Origin: Thermogutta terrifontis
GTDB lineage: Bacteria > Planctomycetota > Planctomycetia > Pirellulales > Thermoguttaceae
Length of the DNA: 64,000 nt
Assembly (NCBI RefSeq): GCF_002277955.1
Contig: NZ_CP018477.1
Span: 4,733,206 to 4,797,205, forward strand
Direction: 5' to 3'
Shown here: piece after piece, positions 13,148-45,330 of the stretch
Layout of the letters: each line of letters starts with the position of its first letter
How positions within the stretch are numbered: position 1 is the first letter of the stretch
The notes under the pieces: generated by a model
The model's input: the letters and a program-made list of their open reading frames with translations, nothing else
Databases searched by the model: none
What the model was told of the DNA's origin: nothing
Program-made: the position numbers and the translations under genes

Positions 13148-13737
13148 AACGTGAGATCATATCGCGTCCTGCGGTGGTTGAACCCATCACAGATTGTTCC
13201 ATCAGCGACGTAAAAGTCTGGCTACAGACACAGGCTATTCAGCACAACCTGAGGTGGCTGCTGGCGCACGCTGACGACGGTGTGATCTGGGGTGAGCTGC
13301 GCGATGGACAGTTGGTCACATCTGACAGCGTGGTGCCCGAAGTGTCTCCACCCCTTCGCGCCGAGACGCTGCAGCAGGCGCGATTATTCGCCATTCACGC
13401 CGAACTCCTGCTCTGGCGGGATGGCGACAACCGGTGGCGTGCGCGTTTGATTCGCGACGCAGCAGAAGGAGAAGACTATGCGTTCACCGACGCCATTGAT
13501 GAACCGCAGATTCTCTGGGGCACCGATCCCCAGCCACTCGCCAACGGCTTCACGCTGATGAGCGATGGCGCACAAGGACTGCGCCATGCCATCCCGCTCG
13601 CTGTGAGAGGGAAATTTGACGAATCAAGCCGCCCCCTGCGCCTCTGGGTGCGACATTATCTGCAAGACGATGAAAGTGGTTTCACCCGCATCGTCGCCAG
13701 CCGACTCTTCGACGTGAAATTGGAGGAAGTAAAATGA
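13144..13737 (+). CDS. csx19: Type III-D CRISPR-associated protein Csx19 (TIGR03984 family)
   Basis: A 197-residue protein matching Csx19 in size, context and in the segment ARLFAIHAELLLWRDGDNRWRARLIRD, a strand-rich stretch I associate with this family. Csx19 is found only with III-D systems and has been seen as a structural subunit of a III-D variant complex; its exact job is unclear. The start is GTG at 13144, overlapping the previous stop (GTGA) with GGAGG 6 bases upstream; the end overlaps the next ATG (ATGA). The central part FTDAIDEPQILWGTDPQPLANGF then GAQGLRHAIPL also fits the family as I remember it, but I could not run a profile search. Confidence 0.7.
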   Translation: MKREIISRPAVVEPITDCSISDVKVWLQTQAIQHNLRWLLAHADDGVIWGELRDGQLVTSDSVVPEVSPPLRAETLQQARLFAIHAELLLWRDGDNRWRARLIRDAAEGEDYAFTDAIDEPQILWGTDPQPLANGFTLMSDGAQGLRHAIPLAVRGKFDESSRPLRLWVRHYLQDDESGFTRIVASRLFDVKLEEVK

Positions 13738-14573
13738 GCAATCGTCAGAAGTTAAATCTACCCAAACATAAAAATCCCTCCTCCCATCGCATCGCCAGCG
13801 CACCTTATAACTTTGTACCATTGCCCGAAAAGGTAGTGACGGTGGTGGAAAACGCCAATGAATTACCTGACCACGACCGCTATGACCCTGACCGACACAC
13901 AGGTTATTTTGAGGTGACACTGACCACGAAATCTCCTTTGTATGTACGATGTCCGCTCACCCGCGAGGAATTTGACCTGGAGGAACAAAACAAAGACAGG
14001 CACGGTCGTGCAGTCGACGATCGGACACGTTACACCGATCGCATCAAAAACACACCCGATTTCTTCTACACCCGCGACCGCAACCGCCCCGTCATTCCCG
14101 GCAGCAGCCTGCGCGGGATGCTCCGCAGTGTGCTGGAGATTGTGAGCTACGGAAAAATGCAATGGGTCACGGATAAAAGGCTCATCTATCGAGCTGTTGG
14201 TGATCCTTCATCGTTAGGTGATCATTATCGTCAGCAGATGCTCGGGCCTAATAGAGCCGCAAGTCCGGACATGCATTTCGACTATCCATCTCCACAGGTA
14301 AAGGGTGGATATTTGCGAAAAACAGATACTGGATGGGCTATCCAGCCCGCTCAGGAGATAATGGGCGAGACGTTTGTTCATGTCGAATACGATCACGCTG
14401 AGCCTATTATTGGAGGACACGGTCGGCAACGAGTACACGACGTGTTTGTTCAGCCAGCTCAACGAACACCTTCCAGCCGTGGGCGACATGGTCGGGGTAA
14501 TTTAACCTTGGACCTAGCGATAACACAGAAAGTATCGGCTTCGCCAGATCCCGATCTGGTTCCAGCCAAACTA
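13734..14573 (+). pseudogene. TIGR03986-type RAMP gene, 5' part, interrupted by IS630 insertion
   Basis: The first 280 codons of a large RAMP protein (TIGR03986 family, Cas7 with a long insertion) start MSNRQKLNLPKHKNPSSHRI and include FEVTLTTKSPLYVRC and VIPGSSLRGMLRSVLEIVS, the conserved N-terminal RAMP segments. At codon 280 (CTA, 14571-14573) the gene meets the left end of an IS630 element. Without excision the frame continues about 18 codons into the element and stops at 14627. Joining 14573 to 15817 restores one uninterrupted frame of 722 residues, so this is a recent insertion in a formerly intact gene. It is the last gene of the III-D operon, so loss should affect this subunit only, not downstream genes. 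Confidence 0.85.
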
Positions 14574-14601
14574 GTGCTCCGTCACAGGAAAATTTTGGGA
14601 T
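14574..14601 (+). repeat. IS630 left terminal inverted repeat
   Basis: Twenty-eight bases beginning GTGCTCCGTCACAGG and ending TTTTGGGAT, directly after the TA target. They match the reverse complement of the right end with one mismatch (A versus T at position 17). Confidence 0.92.
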
Positions 14602-14670
14602 TGTCTTGGGTGGGTGGGATGGGATAGGATGGGTGGTCGTTTCCGTTCCCTTTTGCCAAGGAGGGTTGCC

Positions 14671-15806
14671 ATGCGAAAGAAGTATATTGTCCGGCTGACC
14701 GAGGAAGAACGTCAGAAATGCCAGGAGGTCATTCGCAAGCTGAAGGGGACCAGCCAGAAGGTCCGTCGCGCTCAGATTCTGCTGAAGGCGGACGCGGACG
14801 GTCCGGCCTGGACGGACCAACAGATTGCCGAAGCGTTCGGGTGTCGGCGACAGACGGTGGAGAAGATTCGTCAGCGTTTTGTGGAACGGGGTTTTGAGGA
14901 GACGCTGGAAGGGAAGAGCCGGTCGGGGCCACCAGCGAACAAGATTCTGGATGGGGAGGTGGAAGCGAAAATCATTGCCACCCGTTTGGGGCCGCCGCCT
15001 GCGGGTTACGGTCAGTGGACGCTTCGCCTCCTGGCCCGTCGGTTGGTGGAGCTGAAAGTGGTGGAATCGATCAGCCACGAGACAGTACGCCGGGCGCTAA
15101 AAAAAACGAGATCACGGCGCGGAAGATTCAGTACTGGGTGATACCGCCGGAGGCGGATGCGGAGTTTGCCGCTCAGATGGAAGAGGTGCTGGAAGTGTAT
15201 TGTCGGCCGTATGATCCGTTGCATCCGGTCGTTTGCATGGACGAGCAGCCGGTGCAGTTGGTGAAGGAAGTGCGGCGTCCGATTCCGGCGACGAGAGGGC
15301 ATGCCCGGCGAGTGGATTACGAGTATGAACGAGCGGGGACGGCGGCGATCTTCCTGTTTTGCGAGCCCTTGGTCGGTTGGCGTCAGGCAACGGCGCGGGA
15401 ACGTCGGACGAAGAGTGACTGGGCCACGGAGGTGGCGGCGCTTTTGGACGGGCGTTACGCGGACTGTGAGCGGATCACGCTGATCTGCGACAACCTGAAC
15501 ACGCACACGAAAGGGGCGTTTTACGAGGTGTTCCCAGCGGAGCGGGCTCGTCAGTACGTTCGTCGCATTGAGTTTGTTTACACGCCGAAACACGGCAGTT
15601 GGCTGAACGTGGCGGAGTGCGAGTTGAGCTGTTTGACCCGGCAGTGTCTAGCGGGGCGTCGTGTGGGAGAGTTACGTCTTCTTCAGGAGGAAATTGCGGC
15701 GTGGTCGGGAGACCTAAACGCTCGGCAGCGGGGTGTCGACTGGCAAATGACCGCGGAAGATGCCCGCTGCAAACTGAAGTCTGTTTATCCCAAAATTATC
15801 CTGTGA
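14671..15806 (+). CDS. IS630-family transposase, two frames joined by probable -1 frameshift
   Basis: DDE transposase that cuts and joins the element at TA sites. Frame A (14671-15141) encodes the N-terminal helix-turn-helix part (TDQQIAEAFGCRRQTVEKIR) and linker. Frame B, one base back, encodes the catalytic core and ends at 15806, with the three acidic residues in VCMDEQP, LICDNLNTHT and GSWLNVAECE. The frames overlap at a run of eight A (15099-15106), a slippery A-AAA-AAA site that would give a fused protein of about 378 residues. Several IS630 elements use such a -1 slip; a chance single-base loss in the A-run is the alternative. The ATG has GGAGGG upstream (14660-14665). Confidence 0.85.
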
Positions 15807-17879: not shown

Positions 17880-20071
17880 GTCTTAATCGAACCAAGTTGG
17901 GATTGAAAGAGTTTGAAAACGTCGAACTGCGTCTTGATCGCTCTGTTGTCTTAATCGAACCAAGTTGGGATTGAAACCTTCCAGAACTTTGATCATTGTA
18001 TCCACTGGCATGTTGTCTTAATCGAACCAAGTTGGGATTGAAACGGGACTGTGAGTCTCAAGATTTTCGCCTCCGACGTTAGTCTTAATCGAACCAAGTT
18101 GGGATTGAAACCTTGAATCGCTTGCAGGCGGTCGAGCGTGTCGGGCTGTCTTAATCGAACCAAGTTGGGATTGAAACGTGGGTCTCACAGCTTGGCATTC
18201 GGCATCGCCAACGCGTCTTAATCGAACCAAGTTGGGATTGAAACGCTTAAAAGCGGATGTCCCCTGCGCTTTTAATTTCTAGTCTTAATCGAACCAAGTT
18301 GGGATTGAAACTTATCTTATTGTCCCGCATGTACTCCACTACATTGGGAGTCTTAATCGAACCAAGTTGGGATTGAAACATCAGATAGAACTGATTGGTG
18401 GTGACGGAACAGACATGGTCTTAATCGAACCAAGTTGGGATTGAAACCTCAGGAAGGCACTCTAATTCGGGAGGGGCTTCAGTGGTCTTAATCGAACCAA
18501 GTTGGGATTGAAACGGGTCTCATTGCTGATGTAAACACGTTCAAGTCCTTGTCTTAATCGAACCAAGTTGGGATTGAAACTCAAAAATGTTTTCGTCACA
18601 GCTCACGTACGGATTTTCGTGTCTTAATCGAACCAAGTTGGGATTGAAACCGCGCTCACACGTTCGCAAAAATATGATAAGCATACGCCGTCTTAATCGA
18701 ACCAAGTTGGGATTGAAACGTGCGAAGTCTTTTGTTGTCTCAACCGTCCACCTGCGTCTTAATCGAACCAAGTTGGGATTGAAACGAGCATACTTTACTT
18801 TCTCTCGGACTGATTCCCAGATCGTCTTAATCGAACCAAGTTGGGATTGAAACTCTTCAACAAGGATGTTGAAGGGGAGAGCGACGCGGATGTCTTAATC
18901 GAACCAAGTTGGGATTGAAACTGGCGTTTAGGACTGAACCGCGGGGGGGTCCTAACGCCAGTCTTAATCGAACCAAGTTGGGATTGAAACTCAATCAGTT
19001 TAGCGAGGCACTCAGCGTGACCCAGCGTGTCTTAATCGAACCAAGTTGGGATTGAAACGTGATCGACGTCATAATCGGCAGGCGGTGAGAATGGTCTTAA
19101 TCGAACCAAGTTGGGATTGAAACTTGTGCGACGGCAATCTTTATTAACAAGTTTCACTCGTCTTAATCGAACCAAGTTGGGATTGAAACCGCCATCACGG
19201 GGACCGCGTGTGGTTGTGCGTCTCAGAGAGTCTTAATCGAACCAAGTTGGGATTGAAACGCGAGCATTGCGTATCGATTCTGCTACCGTGAACGGTCTTA
19301 ATCGAACCAAGTTGGGATTGAAACAGGATAGGTTATCCAGTTTGCAATGTCATTTAAAGTAAGAGTCTTAATCGAACCAAGTTGGGATTGAAACCCTTTG
19401 AAGGCAATTGGAAGCAAATAACAAAAATCAGTCTTAATCGAACCAAGTTGGGATTGAAACCGCATGACGCTCTGGAGCGGCAATTTGCATCGCTCTTTGT
19501 CTTAATCGAACCAAGTTGGGATTGAAACTTAGGTGGTCCTTGATTGCGTACGCGTCCGATACAACGTCTTAATCGAACCAAGTTGGGATTGAAACAACAA
19601 ATTAATACTTTCTATGTTGTATGATATACTGAAACGTCTTAATCGAACCAAGTTGGGATTGAAACCGTGATCCAGCACTGTTTTAATCACCTCGCCGAGA
19701 CCGTCTTAATCGAACCAAGTTGGGATTGAAACGTAATTCTTTGGTATCAAGGCGATACCAAACCTCAGGTTCGTCTTAATCGAACCAAGTTGGGATTGAA
19801 ATCGCATAGGGTGATTCAATTATGTCTCCGATCTTGTGTCTTAATCGAACCAAGTTGGGATTGAAATTGTCGGTGTTTTTAAGCACCAATTTAAACTTGT
19901 CCGCCAGGTCTTAATCGAACCAAGTTGGGATTGAAATCGTAGTCACTGGCCGAGTCTTCCCGGCCCCGTGACGGGTCTTAATCGAACCAAGTTGGGATTG
20001 AAATGCCGGTGACGGTGTTTTCACTCACACAGGTGCGCTCTGTCTTAATCGAACCAAGTTGGGATTGAAAC
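17880..20071 (+). CRISPR. CRISPR array, 33 repeats of 30 bp and 32 spacers
   Basis: The repeat is 30 bases, starting GTCTTAATCG and ending GGGATTGAAAC. I count 33 copies, the first at 17880-17909 and the last at 20042-20071, separated by 32 unique spacers of about 34-41 bases. The 3' end ATTGAAAC indicates transcription on the + strand with the leader at the left, next to the cas genes. The repeat is very uniform: the only changes noted are at its last base, G in repeat 1 and T in repeats 29-32 (starts 19773, 19838, 19908, 19975), while repeat 33 has C again. Four spacers contain strong hairpins (see findings). One cas6 probably serves both I-B and III-D systems from this array. Confidence 0.98.
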
Positions 20072-20715
20072 TCTGTGGACATTTGGTACCAAGCCGTCTT
20101 AGCCAGGAGGGACCGGCGATCAAACCTTAAACGGCGGACCTGACAAGCACGTCCCTCCGACGTCTCCGGAGGGGCACGCTTGTCGTGCCCGGCGAAGCGG
20201 CATGGGCTATCAATCGGTGTTCATTGGACCCGACAAGCGGGTCCCTCCATATGCGGTAGGGGCAATTCGTGAATTGCCCCTACCCGCCGATCGTCCCTAT
20301 GTTCGTGGGAAAACACGGCAAACGGCAAGGTGGTGAAGGCTAAAGCCTTCACCGAAAAGCGGCGATAAATCGCCGCACTCCATGGAGTGCGGGGCTTTAG
20401 CCCCGCTATCGGCGCGGGACTTCAGTCCCCGCCGAAGGCAATGGGTGATCCAACGGTGAATGACGGACCTGACGAGCAGGTCCCTCCGAGAGATGCCGCG
20501 GAGGGGCACGCTTGTCGTGCCCGGTGAAGCGGCATGGGCCATCAATCGGTCTTCATTGGACCCGACAAGCGGGTTCCTCCATATGCGGTAGGGCCAATTC
20601 ATGAATTGCCCCTACCCGCGGATCGTTTCTGTGTTCGCGGGAAAACACTGCAAACGGCAAGGTGGTGAAGGCTAAAGCCTTCACCGAAAAGCGGCGATAA
20701 ATCGCCGCACTCCAT
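20072..20715. repeat. Intergenic island of palindromic repeat modules
   Basis: No gene is seen. The stretch is a mosaic of short hairpins: GGACCCG-ACAAG-CGGGTCC (20227-20245), the same type with loop ACGAG at 20465-20483, its reverse-oriented partner GGGCACG-CTTGT-CGTGCCC (20172-20190 and again near 20509), the GGCAATTCATGAATTGCC-type palindrome (about 20258-20282 and 20592-20613), GGTGAAGGC-TAAA-GCCTTCACC, GCGGCGAT-AA-ATCGCCGC, GCGGGGC-TTTA-GCCCCGC and GGGACT-TC-AGTCCC. The same modules recur elsewhere in this window, so they are a dispersed family, not remains of one gene. The short open frames crossing this DNA are likely artefacts. Confidence 0.85.
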
Positions 20716-20779
20716 TACGAGGGAATAAGCGCCACTATATCTGGCAACCGGCGCCAGTAATAGAACGGAGAATCCCCGT

Positions 20780-21874
20780 CTATCCCCACAGACGAGTGAC
20801 AAGAAATCCCAGTGCGAGAAGCGCCGCCAGCACAATCAGGCCGACAATGATCCACCGTCCCCAGAATCGCGGCACCTCTCCCGCAATAGCCCCCGTTTGG
20901 CCGTTCATCCATACTCGATATGTCTTGCCCGCATAGTCGAAGCGCATGACATAGATGGGCAGCAGAATGAGATCGGAGGCTTCCTGTGAAAATTGAGTAT
21001 CCACGACTAAACCGCGGTAAGTATCGCCCGGTAGAAACGCCGCGACGCACTGCTCCTGATACTGCCGGAAATATTCCTTGCAGCGGGACTCGGCTTCCGG
21101 CCGATCGACGACGTACTCTTCGCAGGCCCATCCTGCCAGATAAGCGGGGTCATACCGCCGGAGACCGGCCAAATGAAAAGGGATGAGGCGGTCGGCCACC
21201 TGCTGCGGCACATTTCTGCTGGCCGACACAAGATACCCGCTCACATACTGGTGATATTTCCCTGCCAGAGGCCACCATTCGGTTTCTCGAACGGTGCGGG
21301 TCTTGGTGACCAGCTTTCCGTTCTGGTAGGTGGTGTACGTTTCGGTGCGATACCAGTACTCACCGATGGTGGCCTGCCACTGGCTTTCCGCCAGCATGGA
21401 GAACGACCAGAAGGGAATGTAAACGCCGCGAATATCGGCACGCCGGACGGCTTCACGGAAGGCTGCCGGAGCACTCCCGACACGGCGTTCCATCCACTTC
21501 AAAAAAAGTTGCCTGGCCTCATTCGGCGAAATGGCAAAGCCGAGCACGAACTCCGGGGCCTGGCGACCAGTCAGTTCGGGGGCAAAGTCGAGCACATAGG
21601 TGCTGCCGCAGTACTCGCAGGTGTAGCTGCGCTGGTCGGGCCGGATGTGCAGGGTTGCCCCGCAATTGTCGCAGGTGATCGTCTCCTGAAATGCCCGCCT
21701 GGCCTGCGTGGGCAAAGACGGGGGCTGGTGGACAGCGCCGCAGGCGGGACAGAATCGGTCGGCCGGTTCCAGGGGAGCCCCGCAACGGGCGCAGGCCTCC
21801 GTTTCCACACGGGGCCAAGGGGTTTTGGCCTGCGGTCCAGGAGGTGGTGAGGTGGGAACCCCGGATTTTTTCAC
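20780..21874 (-). CDS. Zinc-ribbon membrane protein, function unknown
   Basis: A 364-residue protein with two zinc-ribbon-like modules at the N terminus: CxxC...CxxC in ACARCGAPLEPADRFCPACG (about 28-47) and TCDNCG ... YTCEYCGSTY (about 66-92). The middle is rich in Trp and Tyr and carries no catalytic motif I know. The C terminus has one clear transmembrane helix (WIIVGLIVLAALLALGFLV, about 342-360), so the bulk should face the cytoplasm if the zinc modules bind metal. The start is GTG at 21874, overlapping the ruvA stop by three bases, so both are probably translated together. The family resembles other bacterial zinc-ribbon proteins of unknown role. Confidence 0.75.
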   Translation of the reverse strand: MKKSGVPTSPPPGPQAKTPWPRVETEACARCGAPLEPADRFCPACGAVHQPPSLPTQARRAFQETITCDNCGATLHIRPDQRSYTCEYCGSTYVLDFAPELTGRQAPEFVLGFAISPNEARQLFLKWMERRVGSAPAAFREAVRRADIRGVYIPFWSFSMLAESQWQATIGEYWYRTETYTTYQNGKLVTKTRTVRETEWWPLAGKYHQYVSGYLVSASRNVPQQVADRLIPFHLAGLRRYDPAYLAGWACEEYVVDRPEAESRCKEYFRQYQEQCVAAFLPGDTYRGLVVDTQFSQEASDLILLPIYVMRFDYAGKTYRVWMNGQTGAIAGEVPRFWGRWIIVGLIVLAALLALGFLVTRLWG

Positions 21875-22515
21875 GCCGTCCTGCTTCCCTGTTGAGATTG
21901 CCGCTCGTAAATGGCGTGGAGCATCTCGTCCACGCTGCTGAACTTCTTTTTACGGCTGAGGACAGAGTCGATCAACCGCCGGGCTTCGCTTTCGCTGTGT
22001 CCCAGGACAAGGAGCGTTTCGTATGTCTGGGAGATGACGTCGGGTTCGACGAGGGACTCCTCGGTGACCTTTTGCTGGGTCACCCAAAGGGCGAACTTGG
22101 GCATTTTGCGTCGCAGTTTGGCGACAATGCGTTCCGCGGTCGCCGGACCCACTCCCGGCAGGCTCGCCAGAAAACGGTGGTCCTGCTGTTCGATCGCGGT
22201 GGCGATTTCATTGACGGGATGCGACATAGCGCGGAGGGCCTTTTTCACCCCCATGCCGTCCACGGAGCATAAGAGGTCGAAGAACTCCCGCTCGATTTCG
22301 GAGAGGAAACCGATCAGGCGGGGGCTGAGCTTTCCCGCATTGACACCGCCTTCGAGATAAAAGATCGTGTGCAGGACCACCCGCTGGTGCAAGAGCGCCT
22401 GAAGCTGCCGCCGCGTGTATTCCGGGATGAGGACCTCGCAGTGGAGGGGCCCGATCCGCACGGTGGCCGCTTCCTCCGTGAGTCGCACCAGCTCGCCCTC
22501 GATTTGTGTGATCAA
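21871..22515 (-). CDS. ruvA: Holliday junction branch-migration protein RuvA
   Basis: RuvA binds four-way DNA junctions and loads the RuvB motor during recombination and repair. The 214-residue protein has the N-terminal OB fold (MITQIEGELVRLTEEAATVRIG), then two helix-hairpin-helix motifs: LLCSVDGMGVKKALRAM and LASLPGVGPATAERIVAKL (about 110-150), the typical junction-binding loops. The C-terminal domain that contacts RuvB (EARRLIDSVLSRKKKFSSVDEML) is present. Length is close to the usual 190-205, with an extra tail. The ruvC and ruvB genes are not adjacent; instead a zinc-ribbon membrane protein is translationally coupled downstream. Confidence 0.9.
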   Translation of the reverse strand: MITQIEGELVRLTEEAATVRIGPLHCEVLIPEYTRRQLQALLHQRVVLHTIFYLEGGVNAGKLSPRLIGFLSEIEREFFDLLCSVDGMGVKKALRAMSHPVNEIATAIEQQDHRFLASLPGVGPATAERIVAKLRRKMPKFALWVTQQKVTEESLVEPDVISQTYETLLVLGHSESEARRLIDSVLSRKKKFSSVDEMLHAIYERQSQQGSRTA

Positions 22516-22619
22516 CGCCGCAGCACTCCTTCTGGATTAAAGACCCGACTCGGCACCGGATGGTTACGTGGCCGCCGATATTGCCGCCGGGAACGCTTTT
22601 TCCGGGGTTTCGGGCTACC

Positions 22620-23528
22620 TCAGGATGAGGAACCGAAGATTTTCTGTTTGATTTCCTGGATCACCCGAATGGCGTGGCCGATCTCCGCCTTCTGGCGCTC
22701 CGGCTCCTGGGGGATTTCGCGTTCGATGGTCAAAGGTCCATCATAACCGATTTCGGCCAGAGTGCGGAGGAACAATTCGGCGTTGACATCGCCGGTGCCG
22801 AAGGGGACTTCGGTTCCCCATTCTTTTCCCGGTTGGGCGGCCCACTTGGCGTCCTTGCAGTGGACGCTCCGCACATATCGGCCGACCTTTTTGAGGGCGG
22901 GGATGGGATCGCCCGTCCCATACAGAATCATGTTGGCGGGATCAAAATTGATGAACAGGTTATCGCGCCCCACGTCTTCCAGAAACTGAAGGAGGGCTTC
23001 GGCGGTTTCCTGACCGGTTTCTAGGTGAATTCGCTGGCCCTGCCGTGCACAGTGATCGCAGGCTTCTTGCAACGCCTGCTTCACCGCCTGATAGTTGGGG
23101 TCGTTGCGGTCATGGGGAATAAATCCCACGTGCAGGCCAACGGCATCGACGCCCAGCATTTTGGCAAAGTCGGCGATTTCCAGAAGTTCACGTTTCCGTT
23201 CTTCACGGGTATCGGGCGGGACCAGACCGACGGTGCGAGCCGTGGTGGGAATGTCGGCGTAGCTTTCGCCTTCGAATCCCGCGAACACCACGGTGATCGT
23301 CAGGCCGAAATCCTTCAATTGTTGCAGAAATTCCTGAGCCCGTTGCGGGGTGCGTGATTCCTTTTTGGGGGTATGGAGATGGATGGTGGGGACACCCAGT
23401 TCCCGGGCCACCGGAAGCTGCACGCCCAAGCCTGCGTCAATACTGGCAAAGACACCGATTGGCCACTTTTCCACGGCTGGTTCCTCCTCAAGCTCTGGGG
23501 ATGACCTCTGCACCTCGTTTTCCGCCAC
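22620..23528 (-). CDS. Sugar phosphate isomerase/epimerase-like TIM-barrel protein
   Basis: A 302-residue protein of the xylose-isomerase-like TIM-barrel superfamily (AP endonuclease 2 fold), a group that includes epimerases and inosose/hydroxypyruvate isomerases and is very common in planctomycetes. Seen motifs: VDAVGLHVGFIP, IHLETGQETAEALLQFL (metal-binding Glu), NLFINFDPANMILYG (Asp), VRSVHCKDAKW (His) and PLTIEREIP (Glu), fitting the usual two-metal site. There is no signal peptide, so it acts in the cytoplasm. The start used is GTG at 23528; a later start near residue 20 (VEKWPIGVFASID) is also possible because the first 19 residues are acidic and not conserved-looking. The substrate cannot be named. 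Confidence 0.8.
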   Translation of the reverse strand: MAENEVQRSSPELEEEPAVEKWPIGVFASIDAGLGVQLPVARELGVPTIHLHTPKKESRTPQRAQEFLQQLKDFGLTITVVFAGFEGESYADIPTTARTVGLVPPDTREERKRELLEIADFAKMLGVDAVGLHVGFIPHDRNDPNYQAVKQALQEACDHCARQGQRIHLETGQETAEALLQFLEDVGRDNLFINFDPANMILYGTGDPIPALKKVGRYVRSVHCKDAKWAAQPGKEWGTEVPFGTGDVNAELFLRTLAEIGYDGPLTIEREIPQEPERQKAEIGHAIRVIQEIKQKIFGSSS

Positions 23529-23689
23529 ATCTGAACGCGCACCCCAGCGTGTCCGCGGGAAGCGCTGTGCCGCCTGGGTGCTTCGGGGGGCGGCTTTTCG
23601 GTATGGCTACGACCGCTGCGCGACCCGTTGATTATGCGGGATGCGCTTCGCTTCGGCAATAGTTTGCCGTCAAGATACTCGAGAGTTTT

Positions 23690-24505
23690 TTCGTTCGCAA
23701 GTGTCCTTCGGAGGGACAGGCCTGTCGTGCCCGCGGAAATTAACGTGGATTATCCAAAGTCAGCAAGCGGACGTGACAAGCACGTCCCTCCGACGTCTCC
23801 GGAGGGGCACGCTTGTCGTGCCCGGTGAAGCAGCATGCGTGATCAATCGGTGTTCATCGGACCCGACGAGTCAATGACGGACCTGACGAGCAGGTCCTTC
23901 CGAAACACGGACCCGACGAGCGGGTCCCTCCGACGTCTCCGGAGGGGCACGCTTGTCGTGCCCGGTGAAGCGGCATGGGTCATCAATCGGTGTTCATCGG
24001 ACCCGACAAGCGGGTCCCTCCATATGCGTTGGGGCAATTCATGAATTGCCCCTACCCACGGATTGTTTCTGCGTTCGCGGGAAAACACGGCAAACGGCAA
24101 GGTTGTGAAGGCTAAAGCCTTCACCGAAAAGCGGCGATGAATCGCCGCACTCCATATGGAGTGCGGGGCTTTAGCCCTGCTTTCATCCCGGGACTTCAGT
24201 CCCCGGGGGGAGGGTAATGGATGATCGAACGGTGAATGACGGACCTGACAGGCAGGTCCCTCCGAAACACGGACCCGACAAGCGGGTCATTCCGATGTTC
24301 TCGGAGGGGCACGCCTGTCGTGCCCGGTGAAGCGGCATGGGTCATCAATCGGTCTTCATCGGACCCGACGAGTCAATGACGGACCTGACAAGCAGGTCCC
24401 TCCGAAACACGGACCCGAGAAGCGGGTCCCTCCGAATATGGACGTGACAAGCACGTCCCTCCGACGTTGGAGGGGCAATTCATGAATTGCCCCCACGGGG
24501 ATGGA
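23690..24505. repeat. Second intergenic island of palindromic repeat modules
   Basis: No gene is supported here. The island repeats the same modules as the one after the CRISPR array: GGACGTG-ACAAG-CACGTCC (23769-23787), GGACCCG-ACAAG-CGGGTCC (near 23998 and 24271), GGACCTG-ACAAG-CAGGTCC and loop variants ACGAG and ACAGG (near 23879, 24240, 24380), many copies of GGGCACG-CTTGT-CGTGCCC, and GGCAATTCATGAATTGCC at about 24033-24050 and 24475-24492. Several blocks of about 100 bases are near-identical between the two islands, suggesting duplication of composite units. The open frames across it read through the repeats and look spurious. Confidence 0.85.
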
Positions 24506-45119: not shown

Positions 45120-45330
45120 CCGTGGATACGGAATCGATCGTCCAATCCTCACAGGTGGACCTGACAAGCAGGTCCCTCCGAAAAAGGCCGGAGGGGCACG
45201 CTTGTCGTGCCCGGGGAAGGAAATGGATGATCCTACGTTGAACGGCGGACCCGACGAGCGGGTCCCTCCGAACGCTCGAGAAAACGGCGCCTGGCCGACA
45301 CGTCCCTCCGGATAGCGCGACAGAGCCCCT
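45120..45330. repeat. Third, short island of hairpin repeat modules
   Basis: Within the gene-free stretch 44866-45649 lie GGACCTG-ACAAG-CAGGTCC (about 45158-45176), the partner GGGCACG-CTTGT-CGTGCCC (about 45194-45212) and GGACCCG-ACGAG-CGGGTCC (about 45247-45265). The rest of the stretch holds no supported gene; a short minus-strand frame starting at 45458 with GGAGGAG upstream (MCKLPRLSHRHLLYESESAK) runs into the repeats and is probably not real. Confidence 0.8.

Follow-up and report, generated by a model that had tools for sequence, protein, structure and literature searches.

Thermogutta terrifontis, a hot-spring bacterium, carries a dispersed family of short hairpins that came to attention at positions 20,072 to 24,505 of a 64,000-nucleotide stretch of contig NZ_CP018477.1 (hereafter the window). 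The original prediction described modules whose stem arms differ from one another but match within each module, around a constant loop, and this family, here called class A, is real. We consider it likely that class A hairpins are repetitive extragenic palindromic (REP) elements assembled into bacterial interspersed mosaic elements (BIMEs) and spread by a REP-associated tyrosine transposase (RAYT), an enzyme that would read the tag, or foot, GGAG and the loop while needing a paired stem of any sequence. RAYTs, as single-strand transposases, are believed to copy REP and BIME repeats.

Form, abundance and arrangement of class A hairpins

Read from its tag, a class A unit is 23 nt long and consists of GGAG, a first arm GG(A/G)CNNG, the loop and a second arm CNNG(T/C)CC, giving a GC-rich stem of 7 bp in which the outer GG..CC and the closing G-C pair are fixed. 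The loop is CTTGT or, less frequently, CTCGT or CCTGT. Four matched stems dominate, namely y (GGGCACG) and three stems of the form GGACnnG, called z (GGACCTG, GGACCCG and GGACGTG). All four predicted modules are present in the window where they had been placed, or nearby: GGACCTG/CAGGTCC occurs exactly at 24381 and 45157, GGACCCG/CGGGTCC at 20226 and 23999, GGACGTG/CACGTCC at 23769 and 24440, and GGGCACG..CTTGT..CGTGCCC at 20172, 20504, 23805, 23945 and 45194. TCCCTCCG stands 3' of the GGAC copies there. Two details needed correction. The CTTGT module of the opposite strand is no loop type of its own, being the ACAAG element read from the other side, and the copy at 20136 joins GGACCTG to CACGTCC, a hybrid in which one pair is broken.

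Collecting copies genome-wide, as had been proposed, yielded 508 exact matches to GGAGGGNCNNGCTTGTCNNGNCC and 0 to its reversed control; with the loop left free, 711 matches were found versus 4 for the reversed control. Class A thus numbers about 700 copies in the T. terrifontis genome, mainly intergenic. A scan anchored on tag and loop, with the arms free, covered sampled stretches of 1.24 Mb (26% of the genome) and returned 459 sites, 270 of which form all seven Watson-Crick pairs (7/7), compared with 59-74 when arms were shuffled. Anchoring on the stem instead gave ~302 hairpins (strand-doubled totals halved); GGAG lies on the CTTGT side in 283 of these and the loop is CTTGT, CTCGT or CCTGT in 280, so the predicted constancy of the ACAAG loop and its variants held. 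Long open reading frames (ORFs) contain 12% of class A sites, though they span 79% of the sampled sequence, and 23 of 105 islands lie inside rough gene calls. As a footed short palindrome, high in copy number and predominantly extragenic, class A agrees with the broad description of REP/BIME elements.

Orientation alternates as it does in BIMEs, with 196 opposite and 70 same-orientation neighbours within 200 bp. Together with copy number, foot and extragenic placement, this bears out the predicted REP/BIME-like organisation. Stem identity follows orientation almost without exception. Among 171 opposite-orientation neighbours no more than 60 bp apart, 169 pair y with z, 2 pair z with z and 0 pair y with y, against a random expectation of 45% y-z. 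Every one of the 51 same-orientation neighbours is z-z, and 66 of 67 islands hold all y copies on one strand and all z copies on the other. Other genomes obey a rule of the same type in 36 of 37 inverted pairs, and their same-orientation neighbours share a stem in 19 of 21 cases. GTAG-tagged REPs beside Pirellulales RAYTs (for example at L080, L084, L085 and L094) form inverted pairs that share the same stem; the heterotypic rule is therefore not universal.

Spacing is regular as well. Inward-tag class A pairs are mostly separated by 8-13 bp, and outward-tag pairs show a sharp peak at a 35-bp gap (59 of 99 neighbours within 200 bp), making a unit of 23+35+23 = 81 nt. The 35-nt y-z linker between outward tags (e.g. 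window 20191-20225) is conserved in length, with a few near-invariant positions (ATC around position 20). When inward-tag dimers were folded as DNA, y-z pairs kept two hairpins, whereas equal stems favoured one 25-bp hairpin by 18.8 kcal/mol.

Two more hairpin families occupy the class A islands, GGAGTGCGG..TTTA.. (class B) and GTAGGGGCAATTCATGAATTGCCCCTAC (class C). Class B reads GGAGT-GCGGCGA or GCGGGGC-TTTA/TTCA, with an untagged second hairpin after it, and all 45 of its 45 inward-tag pairs join two different stems (e.g. window 20332-20406 and 24131-24180). Class C is double-footed, having a foot at either end, and carries GTAG. All three classes are foot-plus-hairpin elements, A and B having GGAG in common. 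A tolerant scan of the window gave 20 class A copies, 6 at 20136-20580, 11 at 23710-24462 and 3 at 45157-45269, laid out with their companions as follows:

20136 to 20158, minus strand: class A z-type hybrid, GGAG-GGACGTG-CTTGT-CAGGTCC read with the tag 5', one broken pair
20168 to 20190, plus strand: class A y-type, GGAG-GGGCACG-CTTGT-CGTGCCC; tag to tag with the z copy at 20136
20226 to 20248, minus strand: class A z-type GGACCCG; outward-tag partner of the y copy at 20168 across a 35-nt linker
20255 to 20284, unstranded: class C double-foot palindrome GGTAGGGGCAATTCGTGAATTGCCCCTACC
20332 to 20406, unstranded: class B hairpins GGTGAAGGC-TAAA-GCCTTCACC, GCGGCGA-TAAA-TCGCCGC-ACTCC and GGAGT-GCGGGGC-TTTA-GCCCCGC; tags facing, stems different
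20465 to 20487, minus strand: class A z-type GGACCTG, loop CTCGT
20500 to 20522, plus strand: class A y-type GGGCACG
20558 to 20580, minus strand: class A z-type GGACCCG, altered on one side only to GAACCCG
20587 to 20713, unstranded: class C palindrome at 20587-20611, with class B hairpins at 20664-20685 and 20691-20713
23710 to 23732, plus strand: degenerate class A hairpin GGACAGG, loop CCTGT
23769 to 23791, minus strand: class A z-type GGACGTG
23801 to 23823, plus strand: class A y-type GGGCACG; tag to tag with the copy at 23769
23909 to 23931, minus strand: class A z-type GGACCCG, loop CTCGT
23941 to 23963, plus strand: class A y-type GGGCACG
23999 to 24021, minus strand: class A z-type GGACCCG
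24031 to 24203, unstranded: class C palindrome at 24031-24052, with class B hairpins at 24131-24180 and 24190-24203
24241 to 24263, minus strand: class A z-type GGACCTG, loop CCTGT
24303 to 24325, plus strand: class A y-type GGGCACG, loop CCTGT
24381 to 24403, minus strand: class A z-type GGACCTG
24411 to 24433, minus strand: class A z-type GGACCCG, loop CTTCT
24440 to 24462, minus strand: class A z-type GGACGTG
45157 to 45269: third class A island, z GGACCTG (minus) at 45157, y GGGCACG (plus) at 45190, z GGACCCG (minus) at 45247

An array of clustered regularly interspaced short palindromic repeats (CRISPR; repeat GTCTTAATCGAACCAAGTTGGGATTGAAA) at window 19029-20071 ends directly before the first hairpin island. 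Of two ORFs upstream, one (13734-14627) belongs to the RAMP superfamily and the other (15015-15806) is a DDE_3 transposase.

Stem covariation and island turnover

Public genomes (257 Gb) were scanned with the class A pattern, three stem pairs being left free. The class A tag and loop recur with other stems in Lentisphaerae, Kiritimatiellae, Spartobacteria, Victivallis and rumen genomes; fully paired versions occur in Lentisphaerae, Kiritimatiellae and other Verrucomicrobiota. All three free pairs form at 72 of 97 sites outside Thermogutta (shuffle mean 21.2, maximum 37). Counted once per distinct sequence, they form in 14 of 29, where shuffles averaged 1.4 and reached 7 at most; the shuffles ignore relatedness in both comparisons. 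Across 31 distinct hairpins the covariation score was 0.353 versus 0.089 for shuffles that likewise ignore relatedness, 0 of 500 of which scored as high; slid registers fell far below the true register in every case. These comparisons indicate that the stems covary between founders and across phyla. In Halomonas, Acidobacteria and Sphingobium the pattern matched at isolated sites whose free positions for the most part do not pair; these were taken as chance hits in a scan of this size.

Single copies within T. terrifontis behave differently. Among 381 copies analysed, 269 are identical to one of the four founders and 22 are exact hybrids of their arms; the remainder show 130 one-sided pair changes and 5 matched two-sided changes, where 0.7 compensated changes would be expected by chance. 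This excess of one-sided changes rules out compensatory evolution of single copies, and matching changes therefore mark separate founder stems or lineages rather than the upkeep of each copy. The original prediction had taken matched changes to imply selection on structure, a reading to be abandoned if copies throughout the genome mutated without compensation; it stands between founders and lineages, and it falls for single copies, which do mutate in that way. Pairing seems to have been required when copies spread and not to have been repaired later.

The family is present in Thermogutta sp. MAG-77 as well as in the distant phyla. A search for the class A pattern across 295 further genomes from this order, including two from the same genus, found none, and a loose-loop search of 8 relatives gave counts that matched the reversed control and revealed no family. 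MAG-77 is syntenic with T. terrifontis, long matches being mostly about 83-94% identical, and it carries the same four stems. Where their islands are orthologous, entire tandem units are present in one and missing from the other (L145/L065, by 153 bp; L156/L013; L222/L019). From the shared stems and the whole-unit differences we infer that the family is older than the species split and that its islands still turn over, through recombination at the least. Where aligned copies from the two species seem to differ by compensated changes, most cases are swaps of one z for another within arrays, maybe through array shift, and were not counted as compensation. MAG-77 contig L168 is 99.15% identical to T. 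terrifontis (L014, 395782-399426) over all 3,645 bases, possibly reflecting recent exchange or mixed binning.

RAYT genes and the hairpins beside them

The proposed search for a RAYT, or Y1 transposase, gene succeeded. The single intact RAYT of T. terrifontis, P0001 (approximately 896451-897039, minus strand), matches the profiles NF047646 (NCBIfam; 83 bits, cut-off 80) and PF01797 (25.9, cut-off 23) and has E. coli TnpArep (4ER8, E 2e-7) as its best solved relative. Its Y1 profile, its HUH motif NHYHF and a tyrosine, Y136, that aligns with chain residue 115 of 4ER8 place P0001 in the RAYT/TnpAREP family. A second RAYT near 3676200-3676900 (L110) is frameshifted and contains a GTAG double-foot hairpin, GGTAGGGGCACGGCATGCCGTGCCCCTACC. 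No class A-adjacent RAYT was found in the T. terrifontis stretches sampled, and the class A hairpin nearest P0001 in its 20-kb stretch is about 12 kb off.

Hairpins with the class A foot are linked to the RAYTs of relatives. One clade, named here after its member P0002, occurs in Lentisphaerae, Kiritimatiellae and other Verrucomicrobiota; its ten tree members form one group (Shimodaira-Hasegawa-like approximate likelihood ratio test, SH-aLRT, 100), and 8 of the 10 have GGAG-tagged hairpins adjacent or in-frame inside. P0002 itself, from Lentisphaerae GWF2_50_93, stands between GGAG-tagged hairpins whose loops are CTTGT or CTTGC and whose stems differ. The RAYT of the rumen genome RUG14821 (G296, L269:1501-2274), the other member with CTTGT loops, has GGAG-CTTGT hairpins alongside and six in-frame between its HUH half and its tyrosine half, an array that encodes the 10-residue repeat PVAATSAALP. 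GGAG hairpins also accompany a truncated RAYT copy in a third genome and, with CTCCGT, TCCT or TTTA loops, other related RAYTs. The RAYT genes at L268, L270, L271, L265 and L267 likewise hold in-frame arrays of their own genome's GGAG-tagged hairpins at the HUH/tyrosine junction; RAYTs with inserts at another site (L291, L293-L296, L298, L299 and L305) had no tagged hairpins in those inserts.

P0001 falls outside the P0002 clade, on a long branch, and an approximately unbiased (AU) test does not reject joining it to the clade (p 0.107). The arrangement that characterises a REPtron, a RAYT flanked by the same hairpins, is seen in T. terrifontis for class B, not for class A, and in relatives for GGAG hairpins. 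The predicted link between the repeats and a RAYT was seen in the relatives' clade, some of whose GGAG hairpins have CTTGT loops, and for class A was not seen at the resident gene.

Proposed mechanism, rival explanations and known REP systems

Group 3 TnpAREP enzymes of Stenotrophomonas and Marinomonas require their GTAG foot together with particular bases of the loop (TTTA in Mb); stem mismatches damage or abolish cleavage, and changes of stem sequence matter much less (PMC8266576). Natural class A variation follows the same rule, which is why we propose a RAYT that reads GGAG and loop with a closed stem. Acting on DNA exposed as a single strand, such an enzyme (HUH/Y1) would recognise foot and loop and demand of the stem only that it be paired, so that new stems could arise and spread as matched sets. 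Inverted neighbours would have to differ in stem, y versus z, because identical inverted stems would form one long, deletion-prone hairpin hiding both recognition units.

In favour of this account, T. terrifontis has an intact RAYT, P0001, with GGAG-tagged hairpins on either side. Several observations count against it. The hairpins beside P0001, the sole intact RAYT, are of class B, not class A, and no RAYT of the clade with CTTGT-loop hairpins was detected in T. terrifontis or MAG-77. The GGAG foot of classes A and B lies outside the GTAG/GTRG/GYAG superfamily, whereas class C in the same islands has GTAG. A clean empty site was sought in orthologous islands of the two species and none was found, and tandem gain and loss is explicable by recombination alone. 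Outward-tag y-z dimers, moreover, fold best as one imperfect long hairpin, by 1-8 kcal/mol; the argument from separate hairpins is therefore firm for the inward-tag arrangement only.

It is a real possibility, if somewhat short of probable, that these are orphan REPs, the RAYT that spread class A now being lost, islands changing by tandem duplication, deletion and conversion, and hairpins no longer being read. This explanation concerns the present state and shares a REP origin with the one we prefer. It would accommodate the absence of a class A-linked RAYT from the searches of T. terrifontis and MAG-77, the whole-unit island differences and the overwhelmingly uncompensated stem changes within the class, but sits poorly with perfect pairing that persists in 270 of the 459 tag-and-loop-anchored sites, with a nearly exceptionless y/z rule and with an intact RAYT whose membership of the P0002 clade the AU test leaves possible. 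We think it unlikely that P0001 is flexible enough to mobilise hairpins of both class A and class B, and possibly of class C too. No other RAYT of T. terrifontis is intact, and classes A and B share a foot and co-occur in islands; yet its class B flanks have the loop TTTA, and it groups apart from the clade with CTTGT-loop hairpins.

Roles in the host deserve weighing too. Sites for a nucleoid, gyrase or repair protein that recognises a hairpin or cruciform would explain the constant foot and loop, and E. coli BIMEs bind several host proteins (PMC2817692); because founder stem diversity and the RAYT association in relatives would stay unexplained, we judge this improbable as the basis of the family, and protein binding could be a secondary use of the hairpins. 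That each copy is a selected regulatory RNA element, such as a terminator or mRNA stabiliser, appears very improbable. Mostly intergenic placement suits it, and islands are slightly over-represented in convergent-gene gaps (18/74 islands vs 40/271 other gaps), too weak a signal for us to accept terminator-like placement. Against it stand a divergent-gene share about equal to that of other gaps (18/74 vs 75/271), the uncompensated single copies, and an Rfam search in which the islands matched no family (CRISPR repeats alone appeared, below threshold), while strict y/z pairing in inverted arrays would be left without an explanation.

RAYT-spread REPs in BIMEs, the reading we favour, have close counterparts. 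E. coli REPs (y, z1 and z2; TnpAREP/RAYT group 2) resemble class A in their tetranucleotide foot, hairpin and hundreds of copies, and form BIMEs that are mosaics of y with z1 or z2 (PMC8266576); class A differs in its foot (GGAG not GTAG), bulge-free perfect 7-bp stem, constant loop and three z stems. Group 3 (subclass 2.5) REPs are likewise short perfect palindromes, and the Mb loop TTTA is that of class B (PMC8266576), but their foot is GTAG and their phylum another. The REP doublet-forming hairpins (REPINs) of Pseudomonas fluorescens SBW25 are also inverted doublets, ~80 bp long with conserved spacer length, class A having its tags outward; REPINs join same-type repeats into one long hairpin (PMC3116915), whereas class A doublets, though their spacer is conserved, are heterotypic in 169 of 171 cases. 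Heterodimers of different stems, and sub-families with alternative complementary stem residues, were described by Di Nocera 2013, who suggest that heterodimers escape SbcCD; the feet there are of GTAG and CGTC types (GYAG, GYRG, GTRG, GTMG and GTGG), and GGAG is not in the text (PMC3733652). TnpAREP subclass 2.4 (Quentin 2018) has in-frame REPs between HuH and Y motifs, as do the relatives' RAYTs, and double-foot REPs, as in class C (PMC6006769). The embedding RAYTs of the P0002 clade, for their part, carry GGAG hairpins. Heterodimers, stem sub-families, the SbcCD idea, REPs inside RAYT genes and double-foot REPs are thus already known in kind. The literature text searched (subscription papers and figures being outside its scope) held no description of the GGAG tag, the strict y/z rule or this phylum range, and no paper with GGAG and RAYT together as words; GGAG is absent from the text of four of the main papers.

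More tentatively, and somewhat less likely than not, Planctomycetota and Verrucomicrobiota may share a REP superfamily with a GGAG foot. One RAYT clade would then read foot and loop only, while stems would drift as matched pairs and those of inverted partners would be driven to differ. If so, stem identity would tell partners apart, being shared by copies in one direction and different in inverted ones, and would not be a recognition sequence. Class A also extends REP feet from GTAG to GGAG. The natural covarying set, 14 or more paired stems on one foot and loop in several phyla, indicates which features a RAYT needs to recognise and which it may disregard, earlier knowledge of which came only from a few enzymes in vitro. 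That inverted neighbours almost never share a stem opens the published guess, that heterodimers avoid destruction as long hairpins, to quantitative testing.

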